Shown here: piece by piece, positions 5,724 through 44,456 of the stretch | How the letters are laid out: each line of letters starts with the position of its first letter | Numbering within the stretch: the stretch's first letter is position 1 | Source: Antedon mediterranea | Lineage: Eukaryota; Echinodermata; Crinoidea; Comatulida; Antedonidae | DNA: 64,000 nucleotides | Direction: 5' to 3' | Assembly (NCBI RefSeq): GCF_964355755.1 | Contig: NC_092677.1 | Span: forward strand, 22,354,101 to 22,418,100 | Notes under the pieces: model-generated | Databases searched by the model: none | Told to the model about the DNA's origin: nothing | What the model saw: the letters and a program-made list of their open reading frames with translations, nothing else | Position numbers and translations under genes: made by a program

Positions 5724-5834
5724 CTATACTATAGGATCAGCATATGCACAGGAATTTTCCACACCAAGATTGTAGTGGTCTCCAGAGCCACCCTTGTATG
5801 CACTGGTTACAAGACGAACCCAACCATTTTCAGC
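5724..5834 (-). CDS. CTSZ: Cathepsin Z exon 7 (C-terminus and stop)
   Basis: The acceptor TTTTAG precedes GCTGAAAATGGTTGG. The exon encodes [19 protein letters not shown] and continues to ADPIV, stopping at TAG (5724). The DPIV ending matches known cathepsin Z C-termini. 111 nt, phase 0. Confidence 0.9.
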
Positions 5835-8800
5835 CTAAAATAAAGAATATCAAGACAGTTACTAACATGTTTTACTATTATTTAATGATATGTTGTCGGC
5901 CGGGAATGGCAGAGAGTCATAGGGATCATTTCTGGATTTGACTTGCCCATTGTGGGGTGACATGGGTGCTGTTGGATTAGGCGTTGTGTTTGGGTATTCG
6001 GTAGGTGGTTTCCTGGAATTTCATGTGTGATTTACGCAAGAAATCTCAAGGGGTGGATTGTTTTGGGATATGTGGATTCCTGTAGTCGTTGCTTGGGCAG
6101 GTTGACTTCGGAATGAGTTTGTGTGACGTTTGGCCGTTCTGTGCGGGGCAATGTATCTTAGTTCGATAAGTATCTTGTTTGATATGATCATATTTTTGTG
6201 TATTTTGTACTTTGGTGTTCCTTGAGCACAGGAATTCGTGGAAATGAAATTTTTTTTAAATGCTGAAAAAACTAGTTGAAAGATAAACATTTCTAGATTA
6301 AAGATTAAATTACTACATTTACCATCTAGCTGCCTTTAAAATTCATAAAGAAAACATTATGTGTGTAAATTAAAAAGGAATTGTAAATTTATGGTTTTCC
6401 TCTACACACAGTTTGATGTTCAGAATGTGACCTACATACAGAAAAAGGAAAAATGATATTGCACAAATTATTTGATGTAAAAGAAATTTCTGAATGTTAT
6501 GTTGAAAAGTTAAAGAGAAATTCCAATACAATTAATTGTTTTTTTTTGTTTTAAATATTTAAAAGATGGACAAGATTGTAAATATAAAAAGGTGGGTGTC
6601 CCTCCGCAAAATACATATTATAAAAAATCTCAACGACCATGTTTCGTAAGTTGTTACGTAATGTCAAACCTCTTTTGTTGGGTACCGCAATGGTCGTTGG
6701 AGCTTTAATTAGTTACACGTGTATTCCTAGAACATAATTTATTTCGTAATTCACGGTTAGCTCAGTTAGTAAAACATGAGGTCATTGATATCAATGCTCA
6801 GTACAGTCGAGTTTGAATCCGCAAAATAAGGTATTTTTAATTATTCAAGCAAGTTACGTGGCGCGGCATGTGAAACGTAGTCTTGTCGACTAATATTTGC
6901 GAGTTCAAGACCCAGTAGATAACTTTTGTTTATTTATCACCAAACGCGAGTGTTGCCACACGCAAATTAAACAGTAGATATCAAACTCCTCAAGAATTTA
7001 CTGGATTTTATATGTTTAATGACAGGGTAACGATAATCACACAAAAATTACTCAGTCAATATCATCGTACTCGAGGAAATATACGATTTACACATACAGT
7101 AAATATTTAATAAATGGGTTATTTGCATAAAAATATACATGTTCTACACAATCCTTGAAATGGGCATTTATTCAATAACATTTTGAGTTAACATTTTTAT
7201 ACATCCTTATTTAATACTACAACCAATATTCATAGGATGAACACCTAGACAGAAGAAAAAAAAAGAATGACATTACTAAAAAGGTTAATATTCATATTAT
7301 ACTTACCCAAGGTTGCCCCCACGAGTTGCGAACTATCCAGTACTCAATATCATTTTCCACACCCCATCCAGCCACAGATATAATGTGGTTGATCTATGTA
7401 ATAAATAACTTTTAATTTTGATAGAGTTCTTTTGTTATTCTACATCTTTACTACTATTATGATTAGTAAAAGTATTTTATTATTATAAAATGAAGAAATC
7501 CTGATACTATATGACAAAGACACTGGGATTGCTAATCTTGCCAAAAATCAAGACAGTAAATGTGTACTTACATAATTAATAAGGTGAAATTCTGTATAAA
7601 TACTTCCACCTTGAAACTTTTCAAATGCATTGGTTGCCATGACACCACAGCTATTTAATAAAAAAAACTAAACATTAAAGTTTTACTTACTTCAACATCT
7701 TTGGAATATTCAATATAGATAGCGCCACCTTTGAAAGCTTCTAATGTAGGAGTGGCCATGATTCCACAACTGCAATAATAATATCAAGTATAATTTAATC
7801 AAATCAATACATACATGAAACAGCAAACATTAAAAGTAGCATGCTTTTAGGCAGGGCATGGGGGTTTACAGTACAGTAAACCCCATTAATCTAAGCGATC
7901 TACTCCCACCTATCAAAAACTCTCTGACAATCTAGTTAGTTCAAATTTACTTTATTATCGATTGAATATATACAGCAAAACTATTAATTTAGCAATATTT
8001 TATATTCGTCAAGGGATATAGTATGTCTCCAGATCACCGAGGGCTATATTTTTTTACCGTGCCCCGATGAAAGCCCAGTAAATATTAATTTTGTTCTATA
8101 TACCATACCACCCAATTTGGCTGGCTAGGCTAGGCCGAAGCAAACACAAACATGGACTTGGTTGGAGTAGGCCTAGGCCTAGTAAGTGGCACAGTTTTGC
8201 TACCAATAAGCAAAAAAAGGCCTGTAATGGATAATTTGTTGCTTCCAGATATGCAATAAATTTTCCCAAATCATACTTTATTTGTTTCTCCATATTTTAA
8301 CTGGCCGCTACACTTACTAAATCCTCTAAGTCAGCTCATACAAAAGTAAATCATCGTATGCTAAGGGCTAGCTACGCAATAGTCGTTTTGTGATCAGATT
8401 GCATTTAAAGAAGAAGGTAGAGGAAACAGAAGTTGTTTTTTTTATTGTTTATAATGTAATGTATAAACCTTAATTTAAAGAATATACATAAAAATAATTA
8501 AAAAAATATTAAGTACAATAATTAGCAATGCAATTAAATTGATACAAGTTTCAATTTTTTATTCCATATTTTATACAACCGGTAAATCAATTTATGCAAG
8601 TGCAGTGACTTACAAATCTAGGTGTAATCTAAGTAGTCCAGACTTGCGAGTTCTGAAAATTAAACTTTGTACGCACCTAATAGGGCCATTTGCATATATC
8701 TCAGCCTTCATCTTGTTTATACCACTGATAGATCCATAGTCACCAACTTTCCAAAGTGTGTAGTTTGATAGGGTAAAGCAGTCTCCAAAGGTTGAACACG

Positions 8801-11800
8801 TACCACATTGATTAAATTTTTCACATTCTGTAGACAAAAATTAAAAAACAAGCAATAAGATGACAGACCCTGACCGTTTTTTCCCCTCTGTAGATCGCAT
8901 TTCTTTCTACACTTGCAGCAGACATTCATTATTATATAACACCTAAATAAATTCCTGTCATTGGATTGGACAATTGTGGGTCACATGGCATGCAATAGTA
9001 CGCACTATTAAATGATCGTTTAACTGTTGTTTCACAATGCTGAATTTCTCTGTTTAAAAACAGTGTTTGGATTGTACTTTATAAGAAGAAACCATGTTAT
9101 AATCCTAAGTATGACGTTGAGATGGAATAAGCTGTAAAGTAAGTGGCCTTTTATATTATTTAGGTAAGTCATACTACTACAGAAAGCTAGCTTGGCTTAA
9201 TCCAACTTTAGATTTGTTATTAGTCTTGTAAGCAGCCAACTTTCATTTGACCTTGGACACATTTTTATTTATATGTGGATTTTTTGTTAGTTTATCTCTG
9301 GCTAGTCAAAACATTTTTTGTAAAATGAATATTGTATACAGAATCGATCCTTTTCATTTATAAAATGACAAAATAGATGGTTAAATTAAACCAAAAACCT
9401 GGCTGGCTGGGTTCAGTTAAATATAATTTTTTCGATGTGAACAACTATGAATGTGACATTAAAATGGCATATTCAACAACAAATTTGTTAAGAATTATTT
9501 TTACAGGGAGACAATACATGACCTACTTTGGTTTTTGGCTTGGTAATTATTGCAAGTTTCATCAGGGATGCCATTTTCGTGTGCATATTTGTAAACTCCA
9601 ATTTGACCACCACCTTCACAGGTTCCAGCACCTCCACAGTCAATGACATTCTGAACGGAAAGATAAGCACTCGGCCAAGCCCCTTTACGTTTTATGTTGA
9701 TACGGTCTGCAGGAAAAATAATGTATTATGTTCACTAATTTAACAAAATACAAACTATATGTGTACAGCCACATCAAAACCAGGCACTTGGTGAAATATA
9801 TATTTTTTTAGTTGATACTATAATGGTATTCCTCACAATATATCCTTCAAAATGGTGTTTGGATCATTTAAATCAAGCAAATATTCCCAGAGTTATGGCA
9901 ATAAATGTATATAGCATTTATACAACAATTTATTTGTAATTACTGAGTAATTAACAGTCAAAGTTTAATGACAAATCAGACAGGAAGTTGCCCCATGCTG
10001 TTGCAGATTGAACAATTAACACCTTAGCAACACTACCTTCTAGATAAACAATCATTCTGAAATTTGGCACACTTATTCAATATAGTGTTTTCTGATATTC
10101 ATGAAAATTTCATCAAAATCCGAGGTGGTTATCATAGTTAATTATGACGATTACAAAGTACCACTAATTTACGTAAAATCTGTCAAATTCATTTATAATA
10201 GTGTAGTGTAAGAATAATACAGTAGGCCTACTAGTAGGTATTCAGGAAGATTGCCTTAGCTTATTATTAGTTCTAAACAAATTTTAAAAAAACAGCAAAC
10301 ATTTTATTAATGAACTTTATTCAATTTTATTTCTCTTTTTACTTTATTTTATCTGCTTTTTGTTCAAAATGGCGCAGGGTACACAATGTCCCTCGTTTCT
10401 GGTCGGCAAAATTCAATTACCAGTATTTTATTTGTGAGTGATTTGTATTGTACTGGTTTTTAGTGTTAATGTTATGTATGTAAGAGAACCTCAACAGTTC
10501 TTTTCAGACTTAATATACGTGGTGTACCGCAAACTTTATATCAACATTTGATTTCGCCATGCAAACCTTCAAAAAATGTTATGTATTCTATTGTTGAACC
10601 AGCACCATAACAGATAGCCACACCCGTTAGCTTGAACAATGTTTTTAAGCATGATGAATAATGTGAAATTTAGCCAAGGTACCAGTATTTTATTTGTGAG
10701 GGATTTGTATTGTACTGGATTTTACTGTTGTTAATGTTATGTAATACGTCTATTGTTGAACCAGCACCTGGTCTGATCATGACAGATAGACACACCTGTT
10801 AGCTTGAACAATGTTTTTAAGCATGATGAATAACGTGAAATTTAGCCAAGGTACCAATATTTTATTTGTGAGGGATTTGTATTGTACTGGTTTTTACGGT
10901 TTATGTTTTGCACACACTCCCCACACACCCAACCCATCATTGGCAATTTTTAAGCATAATGAAATTTAACCAAATTGAAATAAATAAAATAGCCCAGCAG
11001 TAGGCCTAGTAAGTAAAGTAAAGCCTTCCAGGAGGCTTATTATTCTATAGAGAGGAAAACTCTATCTTATTTTAATTGGGCTAGGCCTTGTTGTTGTTAT
11101 TACTATTATTATTACTAGCTAGCTAGGCCTACTATGCCATGCAGCCTATCTAGGCTAGTAGCCCAGCGTAGTAGTAGGCCTAGGCGGATCTCCGCCTAGT
11201 CTAGGCTTATAGTACTAGGCCTAGGCTAGTAGAGCCAGGTCTAGCCTACTGTACCTAGCTAGGCCTAGGCCTAGTGCCAGTGGATTGAGAGTTACATTGC
11301 TAATATCAACTCTTACGATAAATAACTTAGCTAGGCCCTTTACTTTAGTATGTTATAACTTATTGTTATCAAGTCTGAGTCAGTACACGTCACTTTAGTA
11401 TTACTGTGTACAGTACTTAGATGAACTATAAAAAATATATTTTTCTCGACAAGCGTGTACTTTACTAGCGATAAGATTTTGTTGACCTGGAATTTTCCAT
11501 GCTGGATGGGTCATGTGACAAAATTAAACCAATCACATCGCTTCTTTCAGCGTGTTCGTAGCAACAAGGCCGTTTTTGTTTACACTAAAGGGTTCTATAA
11601 AATCGGTTTTTATTGGTCTATATCGTACAATCTGTGACATCACTCATTTATTTTTAGATTCATGAACAAAATACCTATCGAATGATACCAAGCTTTCAGG
11701 GGTTATCTACAAAATTACGGCGTAGGAATGACGAAAATAACTGCTTTTTTATAACGAATTACCACGTTCTTTCAATCGAAACACGAGGATAGAGGCTCAG

Positions 11801-14800
11801 ATTTATGTAATTTTTACCACCTTTCCATTTGAATTAGTTAATAAGATATATATTTTTGAAATCTACGGTAAATTTCCTATCAGATAATGGTAAAAAAACA
11901 AAATGGTCAAAATATGAGTTTCACACATTCAAATGCATTTTACACAAATCCCTATCTAGCGACAAGCGCCTGGTTTTGATGTGGCTGTACACATATATTT
12001 ATAATAAATTACATAACCTAATATAACAACATTGTAGAAAAGAAGGCATAGACATTCCAGATACGCAACACAATATAGATATACAATGAAAAGAATTCTG
12101 CATAGTAATATTATTCAAATTAGATGAAGTATTATAAAGTTAACATTGTTTTACCTGCTAATGCACTGGTTGTACCCATACCCCAACATGATCCACAGTA
12201 TTGTGGTATGTGTTGATTACGTGTTGTACTGCAGTAGTTGGTTCCATTCACGTTTCTCCAATCCCATTCTGTTGGCAGTGAATCTGACTTCAAGTACTCA
12301 TGTGGACGAAAGTGTGTCCTGATCAAAAAAACATCAAAATCAATTAAAAAATTGATTTTTTGTCAAGATTTCAATTTATTTTTCCAAATTGCATTTGATA
12401 AGATAGATAGTTAAAATAATGCACAAAATGGAGGGAAAAACAAAAAGAGCAATGCTTGGTTTTATGGCTAACCTTAAAAAAAGAACTAGAATTTAATTCG
12501 GCACTTTGACGAATTATAGGTGATCATTTTTATAATTTTATTGACATTAATATTTTTTAAACATGCACGTACTGTATGTTAACATATTATCGGAAAATGT
12601 TGATGTATGCCATCCTATTATATGCTATAGTGCTGAGTTGTGCCTATTTATTATATGCTATATACAATATGTACAGACTGTATATCTATATACAGTGTGG
12701 CATTGGTGAAATTACGGGACACACTCATTTTTTTGGTATGATGAAATTATCAACTTGAAGATGACAATATAGAAAGATAATGAATTGAGCAAATAAATAT
12801 AAGAATTGGAGGAAAATTTAGCACATAGAAGCGCGCCGCTCGTTTAAATTTGTATAACTTTTACTAAAGAAATGAAAAAACTACTTTTTAACTTTAACTG
12901 GCCATATGATAATGTCACAACATCTGATAGGCACAATTTTAATAAGAATTCATATCCATAGTTCATCAGCTTTCATAATAAGTTATTAAAATCAAGGTCA
13001 CCTTTAATTCTGAAGAGCTGTGAGATATTTAAATATACGCTGGAAGTTGAAATTACACGATATACGTTATTCAAGTTTTTACTCGTGATAACGTCATCAA
13101 TTAAACGCCGACAACTCATGAGAAAGATAATTAATTTAACAAGCACATACTGAAATTTTAGAAAAAATCGGCCTCAAATAACAGAGATGCGCGTTGAATG
13201 TTATAACCTACAAAAAAAGATAAAAATTCCTAATTTTTTAATTCAAGTGGCCATTTGATGACGTCACAACATTTTTATGTCAAATGTTCGAAGTCGGAAT
13301 GGACTCAAATTCGGTGAATGTACTAAGGATTGCGAGTAGAATGCGATTTATATAAAAACATTCGTATTTTTACGCTTTTTAAGTATGCCTGTTTTTGCGC
13401 AGTAATTTTGTGAAACACACAAATGGCCTAATTCATGCTCTAAATTGATCAAAACTTAATTTTGAGTTTTTAAAATTGTTAGCGCGTAATTTCATGCACA
13501 TGACCTTGGAACGCATCATAGGTTTTTATTTGCTAATATTTTTACCCTTGACGTAAAGTTTACGTATAGTGAATTTTATTGATATTGTTATAAAGAGTTA
13601 TGGCGATATCATTGATAGTTGTGATTTCACAAAATCGCGTATTAATGATTGAGGTTCATACTGAAAAGCTTTTAATGATTTATTAAGTTAAAGGGTGTCT
13701 AGAAAACTCAGATCTCAGATATATCCGAGTTTTCTAGATCTAGAAAACTCAGATCTGAGTTTTCTAGATCTGGAAAACTCAGATATCAATAAAATATCGC
13801 AATAAAAAAATGCCTTTTAAAACAGCTCCTTTTCCGCGAATACTTCGATCGTACTGTTGCCATTTCAGAATCAGAAAATTGCCAGAAATCAATGTATGTT
13901 TTATTCTATGTTTTTATTTGTAAACTGCAGTGTGGTTTTATAAAGAACCTGCTGTACATATCAAAATGGCGACGATATGAGTCCGTACATATAACATTTT
14001 ATTTTTTTTTAAACAATTCACAGTTTTGAAAAACATAAACCATATTTCAATTTTAATATGTAAAACACATATCTAAAATCGTCATCATAGCAAATATTAT
14101 TATCTCACTGTATTAAAAAATAGAAAATTATTTGTTTTTGTTTTAGTGAATGTATTGATTAGTGACCGAGATAATTTCTTTGATAGGCCCTATTAATATG
14201 AATAATAAGAATAATAATGAAATATTAATTTAACACTACCCTCTATAGTTTCTAATATTTTTGGGGAAAATGAAGCATACATTTTGGCAATTACTGTAAT
14301 TGTTAAATATAAGATGGCGAACATTTCCAGCGGCATATGACCGGGCTGCCAACAAATTGAGCCGCCGGTAATTTCTATGAAACGCCCAATTTTACGACAT
14401 TTTGCGTAGTGATTAGAGTGGTGTCCTAGTACATAAGTTCATGGTCTTTAGGTTTATTGTGTCATGAAAATAAATAATATATAATTACATTGGCCTAGGC
14501 CTACTACAATTTTTTTGGTTTGAAAAACAACACTACAGCATAGGAAAGTAGTCGTATTTAATAATTTAATTGTTTTAATCTTTCAAGGTAAAAATGCAGT
14601 GCACTCCATAATATTTTTCTCGTGTGTAGGCCTGCCACGTAAAATCATGTTGTCTCCAGGACTAATAAAAAGAGTATTGATATTCTTTGAATGAAATTAA
14701 ATAATTATAATTTTTTATTTACTATCTTTTAATATCATATTTTATTAAATTTTACAATGTTAATACACAAAATATTTTACTGAAATACGGTGTTTTTTGG

Positions 14801-16020
14801 TAATTATTTTATTTTACCAAAAAATAGAGTAGGCCTAGTTCATACAACCAACTGCCGCCGCCTGAGGTGGGCAAAATGTTTCCGCCATTTTTAGCTAAAA
14901 ATGAACATTTTCGGTGATGTTTTAGGCCTTATATTTTGGCTACAAACAAGTCAGATTTTTATGATTATTTCTTTAATTGTAAATAATAAATATATCGCCG
15001 TAGCTAAAGATACGGTACCGTATTCTAACTTCTGTTTACTAAAGGTACGGTAAAATTGCATTATGTCATAACCAGCCAATGGGGTGCCAACGTGTGTGAC
15101 GTCATCGTATGAGGACTTTGGATTTTTTTCATATCGCGAAAACAGTGATCAATCGCATTGTCTTTATGCTTCATTTATCGCTATTATCGCCGTCGTGTAC
15201 GACAAAAACTAAATGTAGCCTACATCTGTTATTATTATTGAAAAGCCAAAACATGTTGATTTTAATTTTAGAATACAGAAAACCGCTTCAAAAGAGGCCT
15301 AGGCCTACTTACTACGTACTATAACCTCATTATGAGTTCGTTTTTGTAGGGAAAGCGATGCCAGGCTGGGGCCAGCTGCATGTGTGCGCTGATTTCTGTG
15401 ACTCAGCCCTGGGGCTACTGTCTAAAAATCATAGTATTTGAGGGCCCCTTTATTGTCCGCATTTGCTTGTTGTTTATGGTCACCATTGTAAACAAAGTTT
15501 AATAAAAAATATAGGCCTAAAGGCCATTTGGAATAAAAATAGTAAACAGAAGTTAGAATACGGTACCGTATCTTTAGCCACAGCGTAAATATATACTAAA
15601 AACCGTGATATATAAACTTTTGAATATATAGGCCTACATCGTTATCCCTAATAATAGAAACTATTAGGCCTAAATAGAAACGAGAACCGGCGAAAGTTAG
15701 CATTTGGCGTTTCATAGAAAATAACGTTTTTCTGACGGTGGCTCAACTTGGCCTAATCCGTGACTCTGTGAAAAAAGAAATATCGAAAATAACAGTGTGG
15801 TCCGAAACTGCAGTAGCGCCGCCTAGCCTAGCTAGCTAGGCCTAGGCCTAGTAATAATAGTAAGACCAGCTGAAACTGAGTGAGGTTGGATCACTTACTT
15901 TACACCTTCTTCCAACCCAACGTCATACTTAGGATTATAACATGGTTTCTTCTTATCATTAAAGTACAAGCCAAACACTGTTGTTGTTAAACAGAGAAAT
16001 ATAATAGTTAATTTTAGCAT
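5724..16020 (-). CDS. CTSZ: Cathepsin Z (cathepsin X), papain-family lysosomal cysteine protease
   Basis: Seven coding positions joined by GT-AG introns: 16020-15899, 12318-12155, 9706-9527, 8827-8677, then either 7769-7691 or 7650-7572, 7393-7307 and 5834-5724. Total 894 nt, 297 aa, close to the vertebrate enzyme's length. Features in order: signal peptide (residues 1-17), short propeptide with the conserved Cys after [22 protein letters not shown], the family-specific HIPQ mini-loop before CGSCW (catalytic Cys), CEGG, NYQAK, CGTC, a YANGPI segment, the alternative segment, INH with the catalytic His followed by AGWG, RNSWG with the catalytic Asn, and the C-terminal DPIV. The HIP loop and very short propeptide separate it from cathepsins B and L. 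The family acts as a lysosomal carboxypeptidase. Phases match at every junction. Duplicated exon pieces and the alternative fifth exon are described separately. Confidence 0.93.
6639..6737 (+). CDS. Candidate 32-aa microprotein ORF, antisense in cathepsin Z intron 6
   Basis: An ATG ORF of 33 codons encodes a basic N-terminus ([11 protein letters not shown]) followed by a hydrophobic stretch ([13 protein letters not shown]) and a short polar tail (CIPRT), a layout like small mitochondrial or membrane microproteins. A TATAAAAAGG-like box lies about 50 bp upstream. The decamer CAACGACCAT overlaps the start and is repeated inverted inside the ORF. An ORF of this length is not rare by chance in such DNA, and no family is recognised. 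Expression and conservation are unknown. Confidence 0.22.
   Translation: MFRKLLRNVKPLLLGTAMVVGALISYTCIPRT
6748..6830 (+). pseudogene. tRNA-like remnant
   Basis: GGTTAGCTCAGTTAG resembles an A box and GAGTTTGAATCCGC a B box, but the arms do not close into a cloverleaf. A second weak tRNA-like stretch follows at about 6856-6930. Both lie in intron 6 of the protease gene. Confidence 0.25.
7307..7393 (-). CDS. CTSZ: Cathepsin Z exon 6 (catalytic His and Asn)
   Basis: The acceptor ATTACATAG is followed by codons for [11 protein letters not shown] (His is catalytic), a variable [10 protein letters not shown] strand, and RNSWGQPW (Asn is catalytic). The donor is GTAAGT. 87 nt, phase 0 at both ends, so it accepts either alternative exon 5. 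Confidence 0.92.
7572..7650 (-). CDS. CTSZ: Cathepsin Z alternative exon 5b
   Basis: 79 nt between the acceptor TTAAATAG and the donor GTAAGT. It encodes, after the shared Ser codon, [15 protein letters not shown] and then [11 protein letters not shown]. It aligns over its whole length with exon 5a and with the single corresponding segment of vertebrate cathepsin Z. The incoming phase (2) and outgoing phase (0) are the same as for 5a, so the two are interchangeable but cannot both be included. Confidence 0.85.
7691..7769 (-). CDS. CTSZ: Cathepsin Z alternative exon 5a
   Basis: 79 nt between the acceptor ATTATTGCAG and the donor GTAAGT. It encodes [15 protein letters not shown] and then [11 protein letters not shown]. 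Exactly the same length and phase as exon 5b, which lies 40 nt downstream in transcription. CGxMAT and GGxIYxE are conserved between the two; the last six to eight residues, just before the catalytic-His exon, differ completely. Confidence 0.85.
8677..8827 (-). CDS. CTSZ: Cathepsin Z exon 4
   Basis: The acceptor CTACAG precedes AATGTGAAAAATTT. Encodes [28 protein letters not shown] (with an NYT glycosylation sequon) and AEIYANGPI. The donor is GTGCGT. 151 nt. Confidence 0.9.
9037..9138 (+). pseudogene. Inverted, broken copy of cathepsin Z exon 1
   Basis: On the plus strand, opposite to the gene and inside its intron 3, ACAATGCT, TTTCTCTGTTTA, ACAGTGTTTGG, TTGTACTTTA, AAGAAGAAACCATGTTATAA, TCCTAAGTATGACGTTG and the donor GTAAAGTAAGT follow the order of exon 1. 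Deletions after the ATG and after TACTTTA destroy the frame, and an in-frame TAA appears early. It is an old duplication of the first exon including its splice donor. Confidence 0.75.
9527..9706 (-). CDS. CTSZ: Cathepsin Z exon 3
   Basis: The acceptor CCTGCAG joins to complete an Asp codon, then [50 protein letters not shown]. The donor is GTAGGT. 180 nt. This is the most conserved stretch relative to vertebrate cathepsin Z. Confidence 0.92.
10418..10960. repeat. Tandem repeat in cathepsin Z intron 2
   Basis: Three units start with TACCAGTATTTTATTTGTGA or a close variant at about 10418, 10680 and 10852. The units carry a GTTAGCTTGAACAATGTT block. The second-to-third spacing is about 173 bp; the first unit is longer and the third is truncated. 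Confidence 0.65.
10990..11290. repeat. Cluster of TAGGCCTA-type palindromes
   Basis: Dozens of overlapping TAGGCCTA, CTAGGCCTAGG and CTAGCTAGG steps fill this part of intron 2. Single copies occur through the whole window. No transposon ends are recognised around the cluster. Confidence 0.6.
12155..12318 (-). CDS. CTSZ: Cathepsin Z exon 2 (catalytic Cys)
   Basis: The acceptor TTTGATCAG is followed by [28 protein letters not shown] (an NGT sequon) and [27 protein letters not shown] holds the oxyanion-hole Gln and the catalytic Cys; HIP is the cathepsin Z mini-loop. The Trp is followed by Gly-Met-Gly rather than the Ala-His-Ala/Gly of vertebrate enzymes. The donor is GTAAAA. 164 nt. Confidence 0.93.
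13736..13771. repeat. Perfect 36-bp palindrome
   Basis: The stretch from AGATCTAGAAAACTC to GAGTTTTCTAGATCT is its own reverse complement, centred on the AGATCT at about 13751-13756. Partial copies of the same arms flank it (13700-13735 and 13772-13790). Confidence 0.8.
13806..14340 (+). repeat. Dispersed repeat, copy 1
   Basis: Runs from GCCTTTTAAAACAGCTC through GCCAGAAATCAATGTATG to AAGATGGCGAACATT. A direct copy with moderate divergence lies at 53750-54366. Confidence 0.65.
15899..16020 (-). CDS. CTSZ: Cathepsin Z exon 1 (signal peptide, propeptide start)
   Basis: The ATG at 16020 opens [17 protein letters not shown], a classic signal peptide, then [18 protein letters not shown]. The Cys is the propeptide Cys that in the family caps the active site. 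The donor AAA|GTAAGT leaves phase 2, matching exon 2. 122 nt. The near-identical copy at 22013-22135 has one extra A before its donor. Confidence 0.88.
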
Positions 16021-21600: not shown

Positions 21601-22012
21601 TAGTTCATTGTTTATACAAGTGGGGAATCCCCTTTTAGGACGCTATTTGTCTGTAGTTTGCAAAGGAGTGTGTAACTTGACTGAAAAACTGCGAACTTTT
21701 GATGTACCGGCGGTTGGAACCATGAACATTATAATATTAGAAAGAACAATATAAACAGGTCCATCCCAAATTAAACTCATAGAGATGTTGTTCAGGCCCT
21801 AGCCAGGGGAAATCTTTATGGTTCGGGAGAACCTCTTAGACGTTAGACTTAAACGCAAATGTGTTTACCGGCGGAAAAAGTAGCTGGCTGCGATCGTTTT
21901 GCCAATTGCAAGCGCGCTATTATTTTGAGTGTAATTTCTGGCCAAAGAGGTGCCATTTATCATAATAGTAATAGTAAGACCAGCTGAAACTGAGTGAGGT
22001 TGGATCACTTAC

Positions 22013-22135
22013 TTTTACACCTTCTTCCAACCCAACGTCATACTTAGGATTATAACATGGTTTCTTCTTATCATTAAAGTACAAGCCAAACACTGTTGTT
22101 GTTAAACAGAGAAATATAATAGTTAATTTTAGCAT
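22013..22135 (-). pseudogene. Recent duplicate of cathepsin Z exon 1
   Basis: Almost identical to 15899-16020, including the ATG, the signal peptide [17 protein letters not shown], the [18 protein letters not shown] segment and the GTAAGTGATCC donor. It also keeps about 65 bp of 5' flank, but the upstream E-box region is replaced. One extra A before the donor makes it 123 nt, so splicing to exon 2 would shift the frame. It could be an alternative first exon of a rearranged paralogue or a dead copy; the extra base favours dead. Confidence 0.75.
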
Positions 22136-23080
22136 TGTAAAATAACGACGACAGTTCACTAGACTTTTCGGTGGTGCAAAGAAGATGGAATAAAGGAAGT
22201 AAAAACAAGTTGAATTTTGAAATTATGAGGAATCAGATATACAGTAATTCGGTAAATACTGGCCAATGTAGTACAGTAGTATAACACTCCCGTAATATTT
22301 TTCGTATGCTGCGCATAGTATGCAAAGGATGGCCATCGGCGGCAGTTTTCAGCCGGTCCTCCAATACGGACAATGCAGTTATTTTTTAGGCCTAGGTTGT
22401 GTGATGTCTAGCATTAATTTGTTTGTTTTAAGGTTGTTAGAGTTTTTTTTAAATATATTTATCCGCTTCATCATGTGGAGATCTAAGACGGGATAAACCG
22501 CATGCAAGAAACAGGTTAGATTCACAGAATATTCTATTCTCGAATTTAATATCAAAACAATCAATTTGTTTAAAGGTTTTTGCTTTAACGAAATTATAAA
22601 GTTACTGCAAACATGATTTTAAACAACAAAATGTAAAAACAATGCATTTTACGATGTACAAACTAAACGCGCACGCGTAGAGTGTGCATGAAGCGCAAAG
22701 AGCACCAGAAGGAGAGTACTCACATAGTGACTTTTCTACAATCCGCCAGACTGGTGTTTCTTGTGTTTGTATTTTTGATTGTATTATATGTTTTATATGT
22801 CTTCTGGAAAATAAATGAATTGAATTGAATTGAATATATTGAAAGAGTTCCGAAATTCAATAGATTATATAATAATAATAATTTATTGAAACTACACCTT
22901 TACAACGGTGGCACCCGTTCATACACGGTGCGTTCTATATAGCCTACAGATAGACATTCAACAGATACAAATTAATAAATACAAACAGATACAAAATAAA
23001 ACTAGTCAACCGCCGACTCGATCGCTATCGTAGTCGTACGTCACTTATGCAATATACAATGAGTTAAAAATAAAAAAATA
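22136..23080. other. Intergenic, low-complexity pieces
   Basis: TGAATTGAATTGAATTGAAT microsatellite near 22817. At about 22870-22920, on the minus strand, GGTGTAGTTTCAATAAAT then (ATT)n looks like a retrotransposon 3' end with a microsatellite tail. No gene seen. Confidence 0.4.
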
Positions 23081-23869
23081 TTGTACCAAAATTTAAAAAT
23101 ATTAATATTAAAAACTCAAAACTGTAACTGGATTAGATCAGGGTTTTTAAAAATATATGATGTAATAAATAATAATGTGTTTAAACCTGCGATAGAGATA
23201 AAAAGAAGGTTAAGATGTACACAAAATTGGATCAGTGAATATTCATGTATATTGAAAGCCATTCCAAAAGAATGGAAATGTATTTTAAAATCAGCACATG
23301 ACATTAATGTAAATGATATACCTATTACAAACAATAAGGTCTTAAATATGACGTCTAGTCAATTATATAGATTCATAATAGATGCTCAATATATTACACC
23401 TACGGCACAGGTTAAGTGGGAATCCATATTTGGTAATATGCCATGGACAAAAATATGGGTAAAGAAAGTTTCTGGTCTTAAAGAAAAAAAACTGGCACAT
23501 TTTAATTTTAAATTGTTGCACAGAATATTGCCAACAAATGAAAGATTACATAGGTGGAGACTTGTAAATTCCCCATGTTGTGACACATGCAATGTTATTG
23601 AGAATGATAAACATATGTTAGTAGAGTGCATAACAGTAAAATGTTTATGGAGAGAGATAAACGAAATAATTAGAGCAGTAAGCATACATATTCCTGTTTT
23701 TTCTTTCAAAAGACTTTTATTTGAAACTGACAATAATTACGTAAATAAATTATACACTTTAGGAGCATTTTGTATTTATAAAGTAAAGATATTAAGTTTA
23801 TTGGAAAAAGAAAAAAAAATCAATCTTCTACAAATGTTTAAATCTGAAAAAAAGATAAGAAATATGTAA
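23081..23869 (+). pseudogene. Tx1/L1-type LINE ORF2, C-terminal fragment
   Basis: An open frame of 262 codons that matches the region after the reverse transcriptase of L1/Tx1-clade retrotransposons. Characteristic pieces are KLAHFNFKLLHRILPTNERL, then a zinc-binding CCDTC-x8-H-x4-C pattern (CCDTCNVIENDKHMLVEC) near residues 166-183, followed by LWREI. This is the zf-RVT-like tail of ORF2. The reverse transcriptase and endonuclease are absent: the copy is 5'-truncated close to 23080. It is open to its natural stop and followed by a long A-rich 3' region, so it is a fairly young insertion. It does not make a functional element on its own. Confidence 0.8.
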
Positions 23870-42678: not shown

Positions 42679-44456
42679 CTGTCAACATGACCAAGTATTT
42701 TATGTAATAAAGTTGTAACTGCATCTTCTACCCCCCTTTTGGAACAGTAGGCAAATTGACATGGATCCAAAAGACTTGGTCTCGCTTAAAATCTCATTCT
42801 TAATTAATTTTTCGAAACATTTCATAGGTACAGCAGTTTGGTAATGGGCCTATAGTCATTGAGAGCTTCAGGTTTATTATTCTTTGACAATGACAGAGGG
42901 TGAATTAAGGATTTTTTTTTAAGGAATTTCAAATTACGCAGTGACCAACGAAAAAACTTGCGAGAGTTGCTCATTGCACTCTTTTAGCACCTTTCCACTG
43001 ACTTTATCCGGCCCTACTGCTTTCTTGATGTTAATTTTCCCAAACATGAACTTGACACAGGGTTGTCATGTAATCCGCTATCTACTATCTTGTTAATAGT
43101 TTGAGATCTATTTGCACTAAAGTCCTTGTCGTTTAACTCGTTGGCAATTTTTTTGCTATTTCCTGCTGTAATATTATTACCCATCTTATTTCCATAACCT
43201 GTCATGTTGCGCATACTATTCCATACCTGCTTGCTGTTTCCAGACTTGAACTTTTCCTTCACTTTTTTTCCATACCGTTTCTTACTGCGAGCTATTTCTT
43301 TTTTTAATTCCTTCTGTATTTTTCTCCTTTCATCGTGGTTAGCACATTTTTGCTTTCTTTGCACTACTTTCTTAATATTTCCATTTAGCCAGGGTTTATT
43401 ATTAGGGAACAGCTTAATTTTCCTTTCCTTAATAATACTTCCAACACAAAAATCAATGTATCCGGATATCGCGTCTGTCGCATCATCAATTGTGGCACCT
43501 TCCATAAAAATATTCCAGTCGGTTGACTCAAAACATCCTTTTAACTTTTCAATGTTTTCGTAGGACCACTCTTTTACAGACCTGATAATAAGTTTAATTG
43601 CCTTTATTCTCTGAACATATTTAGGCATCAGGTGAACAGACTTATGGTCAGAAGAACCAATTCCTGGTTTTATCACGCATTTATAAGTCTTAGTAACATT
43701 GCCATAGCATTTATCAAGAATGTTCTCACCTCTAGTAGGTTTGTCTACATACTGGTGGTAGTGTGGTACTGCTTTATTTAGCTCGCACTGATTAAAGTCG
43801 CCTGCAATGATTATAACCGCGTCAGGTGAGTCATTCTCCATGTCTCTTATCAGATCATGTAAATAATCAGCTGATTTTTTCACAATTGCTGAGGTGGTAA
43901 TGTATACGACAGTAATAAAAAATTTAGGAAATTCCCTTGGGAGATAATAAGGCCTAAGAGAGAGCGTAAGTACTTCGATATCTGGTGAACAGTATTGTCT
44001 GAAAATGCTCACATTAGAGCACCAGCGGTTATTTATATAAATGCATACACCTCCCCCACATTCCTTAAGCGCATCTGGTGTCCTATCTCCTCATACGCCA
44101 TCAATATGGCTGTAACTTTGAGTGTCCTTATTTGGTTAGAACCATGTTTCTGTCACAACCATTACATCTCTGTAGTCATTCAAGGTAGATACCTTTGTCG
44201 TGAGTTTATCCAGCTTCTCCCCGACAGATTGAGCATTGAACATTATAATCGAAGGAAGCGGTGGATTGAAGGTTCTATGCTTCAGCCTTTGACGAACGCC
44301 GCCTGTCCTACCCCGCTTCCTAGGCTTCCTAGGTTTAAATTCTCGTGTAAAATCATCCGCGAAAGCGGGCTTCCTGCTAGACAATGGGCTAACCTGCAGT
44401 GATTTTAGGGCCTGGCTACTGTACACCAATCTCCTTGATACTGCGCTTAAACACAC
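42665..44456 (-). pseudogene. CR1/Rex1-type LINE ORF2: endonuclease and start of reverse transcriptase
   Basis: Minus-strand reading SIIMFNAQSVGEKLDKL, VMVVTETWF, stop, SHIDGV, stop, ECGGGVCIYINNRWCSNVSI, YYLPREFPKFFITVVYI, IIIAGDFNQCELN, TRGENILDKCYGNV, GIGSSDHKSVHL, SVKEWSYENIEKLKGCFEST and KPWLNGNI: an AP-type endonuclease domain and linker of jockey/CR1/Rex1 non-LTR elements, with GDFN and SDH catalytic motifs intact. A frame change near 43035 leads to KKAVGPDKVSGKVLKECNEQ, LNDYRPI, MKCFEKLI and DPCQFAYCSKRGVEDAVTTL, the first blocks of the reverse transcriptase. The YADD region is absent: the copy ends in gypsy sequence. Two stops and at least two frame changes. Confidence 0.85.

Follow-up and report, generated by a model that had tools for sequence, protein, structure and literature searches.

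The cathepsin Z gene of the comatulid crinoid Antedon mediterranea contains two homologous versions of its fifth exon, lying side by side. They are best read as a mutually exclusive pair, so that each transcript would carry one of them and encode one version of the enzyme; the probability of this reading is put at roughly 80%. Judged from sequence, the gene most likely gives rise to two enzymes that differ slightly.

The gene lies on the minus strand of the window, the 64,000-nucleotide stretch of genomic DNA that was analysed. Exon 1 (15899..16020) is 122 nt long, ends in phase 2 and holds the start codon, the signal peptide and the start of the propeptide. Exon 2 (12155..12318) encodes the remaining propeptide, the HIPQY mini-loop and the active-site Cys (CGSCW). 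It is followed by exon 3 (9527..9706) and exon 4 (8677..8827), whose 3' end reads GGC CCT ATT AG, in phase 2, before the donor GTGCGT. Next come exon 5a (7691..7769) and exon 5b (7572..7650), each of 79 nt, encoding a 26-residue peptide and ending at a GTAAGT donor. The spacer that separates the 5a donor from the 5b acceptor (7651..7690) measures 40 nt and contains a run of eight T. Exon 6 (7307..7393) provides the INH motif with the catalytic His as well as the catalytic Asn (RNSWG), and exon 7 with the stop codon occupies 5724..5834. Every internal exon boundary of the gene has AG/GT.

When the exons are joined in silico with 5b, the product reproduces the protein P0001 exactly, letter for letter. 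P0001 is the NCBI record "cathepsin Z-like isoform X2 [Antedon mediterranea]", and 5b, the form in this isoform, is the sole version of exon 5 met in a protein record; the 5a protein was found in none. Under NCBI naming practice, the label X2 implies a further isoform of the same gene. A query with the 5a form is 95% identical to P0001, so a 5a isoform would sit hidden in the 90% cluster of P0001, which has three member sequences.

The identification of the gene as an echinoderm cathepsin Z, a member of papain family C1A, is sound. With the 5a form from exon 3 onward as query, the best matches of solved structure are the human cathepsin X/Z entries 1EF7 (E 1.1e-97) and 1DEU (1.6e-97), far ahead of the next family (1.4e-19). 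Relative to these human enzymes, the crinoid protein has an additional residue following the GG of exon 5, and the crinoid gene differs in offering two alternative exon 5 peptides. The HIPQY mini-loop, the CGSCW Cys and the catalytic His and Asn are all present in the predicted protein, the last three residues being the catalytic triad of the family. The mini-loop of cathepsin Z is described in PMC8777295. NCBIfam, a library meant for prokaryotes, gave no match for P0001.

The gene is likely the only cathepsin Z in this genome, to judge by sequence searches. A family search of the genome gave at least 52 matches, two of which are this gene. A tblastn search with P0001 on L001-L010 and four regions (L011-L014) found no second cathepsin Z; its matches are weaker and belong to other papain-family genes, and on L010 they are just the exon-1 copies of the window. 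Many papain-family matches lie close together at about 6.59-6.87 Mb of contig C7 of the genome (G000), which looks like a tandem array of cathepsin genes.

The earlier note on this DNA described two homologous 79-nt exons, back to back, with intact acceptors and GTAAGT donors, and this description is confirmed. The two exons, 40 nt apart and both with an AG acceptor, are identical at 47 of 79 nucleotides (59%), and their peptides at 12 of 26 residues. No single-base shuffle of 5b among 20000 reaches 47 matches. When the window is searched with each peptide, the only significant match besides the query itself is the other exon (E about 2.5e-6), the next matches having E values of 2.4 for 5a and 0.20 for 5b. 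The exons are neighbours and homologues, agree in length and phase, and have canonical splice sites, as is expected of a mutually exclusive exon cluster.

The reading frame also behaves as had been claimed. Because exon 4 ends in the AG of a Ser codon, either exon 5 restores the frame to exon 6, which opens with ATC AAC CAC (I-N-H). In silico, 5a alone or 5b alone gives a protein of 297 residues with one terminal stop. If both are included, a stop arises at codon 242, which is 139 nt ahead of the last junction; if both are left out, one arises at codon 226, about 29 nt ahead of it.

The similarity extends past the exons on one side. The intron starts after the two donors (7543-7571 and 7662-7690) are identical at 22 of 29 nucleotides (76%), whereas the 20 nt preceding the two acceptors are not alike (7/20). 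Beyond the GTAAGT itself the intron starts match at 16 of 23 positions, a score reached by 19 of 63977 minus-strand positions in the window, the spacer included. The intron starts are thus more alike than the exons, with samples (16/23 vs 47/79) too small for a claim. Their identity may mean that the copy is not very old, or that splicing signals are under constraint. A tandem duplication of exon 5 together with the start of the following intron probably gave rise to this two-exon, presumably mutually exclusive cluster.

How the joining of 5a to 5b might be prevented depends on the spacer. The earlier note considered 40 nt to be below the usual minimum for metazoan introns. This agrees with the papain-family genes of this genome, in which the shortest of 24 estimated introns measures about 158 nt and the smallest raw gap 136 nt; the estimates are rough, being derived from family matches in which in-frame read-through introns would be missed. 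Elsewhere, however, much shorter introns occur. In the myxozoan Ceratonova shasta, two introns of a partial cathepsin Z gene are 26-27 bp long, and myxozoan introns of 21-28 nt are reported to be spliced (PMC8777295). Splicing evidence is also reported for 15 of 22 human introns of 37-65 nt that were screened (PMC4463651). A length of 40 nt is therefore, on its own, no bar to joining 5a to 5b.

Even so, steric exclusion, as the earlier note proposed, is the best available mechanism, and the geometry of the spacer would fit it. In human clusters, steric interference is set at a branch point less than 50 nt from the donor (PMC5740500, PMC7969005), and in OGDH, exclusion is reported to be imposed by branch points that lie 25-41 nt from the donor (PMC7969005). 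A branch point anywhere in the 40-nt spacer would be less than 50 nt from the 5a donor, which makes steric exclusion plausible. If the branch point of 5b is there, it would be too near the 5a donor for U1 and U2 snRNPs to bind together; alternatively, it may lie upstream of the 5a donor, likewise excluding 5a-5b joining. Each transcript would then take 5a or 5b, 5b being the form in the NCBI gene model and 5a its presumed counterpart. Splicing slips would be lost through the frame shift, and double inclusion may also be lost through mRNA decay. Under the 50-nt rule of nonsense-mediated decay, a transcript that skips both exons would be spared, since its stop is so near the last junction.

Folding of the RNA at 7540-7800 revealed no structure around the exon pair beyond chance (z -0.20, with 77 of 200 shuffles folding as well). 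Exclusion of the docking-site/selector type would call for competing helices in the introns near the cluster; two 14-nt imperfect inverted repeats occur within 7300-8830.

Both exon peptides can be compared with those of other cathepsin Z proteins. Among 191 proteins, the exon-5 segment was located by pattern in 170, of which 163 fitted a single frame and the other seven, one urchin among them, were set aside. When similarity is ranked against the 162 other segments, 5a is 14th and 5b 10th from the bottom. The residue of 5a recurs in at least one other sequence at 25 of 26 columns, and for 5b this is true of all 26. The exceptional residues are in 5a: an Ile that 1 of 162 sequences has in the same column, and, in the insertion column, an Ala matched in none of the 162, of which just nine have any residue there. 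Both peptides therefore appear, from the alignment, unusual yet inside the range of variation of the family.

These data bear on the question of whether 5a is in use. It is conceivable, though improbable, that 5a has recently been lost or is rarely used, in which case only 5b would be spliced in practice and NCBI isoform X1 would differ elsewhere. That 5b alone was met in a protein record agrees with this idea, as do the rare Ile and the unmatched Ala of 5a. Substitution patterns agree with it too. Differences between the exons fall on codon positions 1, 2 and 3 in 11, 9 and 11 of 26 cases, without a third-position excess, and the dN of 0.51 and dS of 0.82 indicate mild constraint only. Positive selection on the pair is not shown by these values. 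On the other hand, 5a has intact splice sites, ranks slightly above 5b in family similarity, and like 5b has an open frame and conserves 10 of 10 chosen family positions, the choice having been made with the alignment in view. Neutral simulation, for which a start from 5b was assumed, retained all ten positions and the open frame in 494, 28, 0 and 0 of 20000 runs at 10, 16, 24 and 32 substitutions, the last being the real difference between 5a and 5b. Neutral decay of either exon is thus unlikely, and selection has probably acted on both over much of their history.

The exons could also be alternative without being exclusive, with double inclusion or skipping serving as a regulated unproductive outcome that sets the level of enzyme. 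Some animals splice very short introns, both outcomes shift the frame, and the stop after double inclusion lies 139 nt from the last junction. Nevertheless this is a distinctly unlikely reading, because it does not need two divergent yet intact coding exons and because even the shortest papain-family intron estimate of this genome is several times the length of the spacer. An artefact of assembly or haplotype, in which the exons are alleles or a mis-joined repeat, is very improbable. The contig given for P0001 (28587047) and the one that holds the window (28582174) are unequal in length by about 5 kb, which may reflect two assembly versions or haplotypes, but with an identity of 59% the exons are far more different than alleles would be, and the flanking exons read the same in the NCBI protein. 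The mutually exclusive pair remains the preferred reading.

The age of the duplication can be approached through the echinoderm sequences. Both exons encode the extra residue after GG, as do the brittle star, sea cucumber, urchin and sea star sequences of the alignment; the three hemichordate rows lack it. With seven named echinoderms, 5a shares 10-16 and 5b 8-14 of 26 residues; for instance, L. pictus shares 16 with 5a and 14 with 5b, Amphiura 13 and 13, and Asterias 12 and 8. The two exons share no more with each other (12/26) than with some of these echinoderms, a weak signal that would fit an origin before crinoids split off. Since a coral sequence (P0123) shares 16 residues with 5a and 15 with 5b, however, 26 residues cannot date the duplication. 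No other named crinoid is present among the 120 matches listed of 3520 proteins found. The Amphiura filiformis protein P0004 is also named "isoform X2", so two or more proteins are probably annotated for the brittle star gene.

The choice of exon had been expected to yield two proteases of different specificity, with the divergent last residues placed immediately before the catalytic His. The last residues do diverge strongly, but they are not directly before the His: the Ile and Asn of exon 6 intervene, and the His is the third residue beyond the exon-5 border. The last five columns of exon 5, moreover, vary widely across orthologues. Five S2 positions are given for the cathepsin Z of C. shasta (PMC8777295), and these were mapped onto the crinoid protein by counting residues from the catalytic His, with a correction for the additional echinoderm residue, rather than by alignment with the C. 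shasta protein. On this mapping, two flank the catalytic His in exon 6, and the first pair and the last one are in other exons. The equivalent of papain 133 is the sole S2 position in exon 5, and corresponds to Gly208 in either form; should the mapping be wrong by one residue, it would be residue 209, which is Ile in 5a and Val in 5b. A switch of S2 specificity is rejected as stated, with four of the five positions outside exon 5 and the fifth a Gly in both, and the broader case for two specificities is weak.

The two enzymes would then have their catalytic residues, mini-loop and, by the mapping, S2 lining in common, and would differ in a short helix turn and in the stretch leading to the catalytic His. 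The differing turn, at model residues 213-217 (NAFEK or PTLEA), may border the S1' side, by papain numbering. From its position, a change in prime-side specificity is possible; the choice of exon could just as well affect stability, dimer contacts or inhibitor binding. A bolder and rather doubtful proposal is that the duplication is old, that the two predicted carboxypeptidases from an apparently single-copy gene differ at the S1'-side turn, and that C-terminal trimming would vary by tissue or stage.

The best-known mutually exclusive exons are those of channels, contractile proteins and receptors. Alpha-tropomyosin has a steric-interference pair, which is also cited in the OGDH study. As proposed for the crinoid gene, alpha-tropomyosin and exons 4a/4b of OGDH are reported to involve two homologous tandem exons in either-or use, with a branch point that must fall close to the upstream donor or ahead of it. 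OGDH intron 4a measures 118-131 nt in birds and mammals, against the 40-nt spacer here (PMC7969005). The crinoid gene differs from both in encoding a cysteine protease. Human mutually exclusive clusters likewise consist of homologous exons, with a length that, like that of the crinoid exons, is not divisible by three in 60% of clusters, and 9% have the steric-class geometry that the crinoid pair appears to share (PMC5740500).

Exon-swap splicing is thus known from other genes, and no description of it for cathepsin Z was met among the papers listed by the searches. The word cathepsin is absent from the main text of PMC5740500, and that of a 2026 review of cathepsin Z/X (PMC13257197) has no use of "splic" or "isoform". 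The earlier view that no case had been described in cathepsin Z holds for the literature titles and abstract openings listed, none of which describes alternative exons in this gene; it must be qualified by the existence of an NCBI gene model with an isoform X2. If the pair is used as proposed, the active-site framework of a lysosomal protease would be tunable by splicing within the catalytic domain, and the spacer, at 40 nt, would offer an extreme natural case for testing how small the distance between donor and branch point can be.

The window also contains copies of exon 1. A second copy with its flanks, at 21963-22216 on the minus strand, is about 93-96% identical over 250-270 nt to the region at about 15.85-16.12 kb. 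Its coding part is identical for 122 nt and has one more A before the donor, and because of this A it would be joined to exon 2 out of frame. Use of this copy (22013-22135) as an alternative first exon is unlikely, as the 123-nt reading followed by exon 2 stops at codon 48. A decayed, inverted copy is located within intron 3 (9044-9145, plus strand; 88% identical over 109 nt). Long open frames at 23081-23869 (plus strand) and 43014-44012 (minus strand) resemble, by eye, pieces of retrotransposon proteins.
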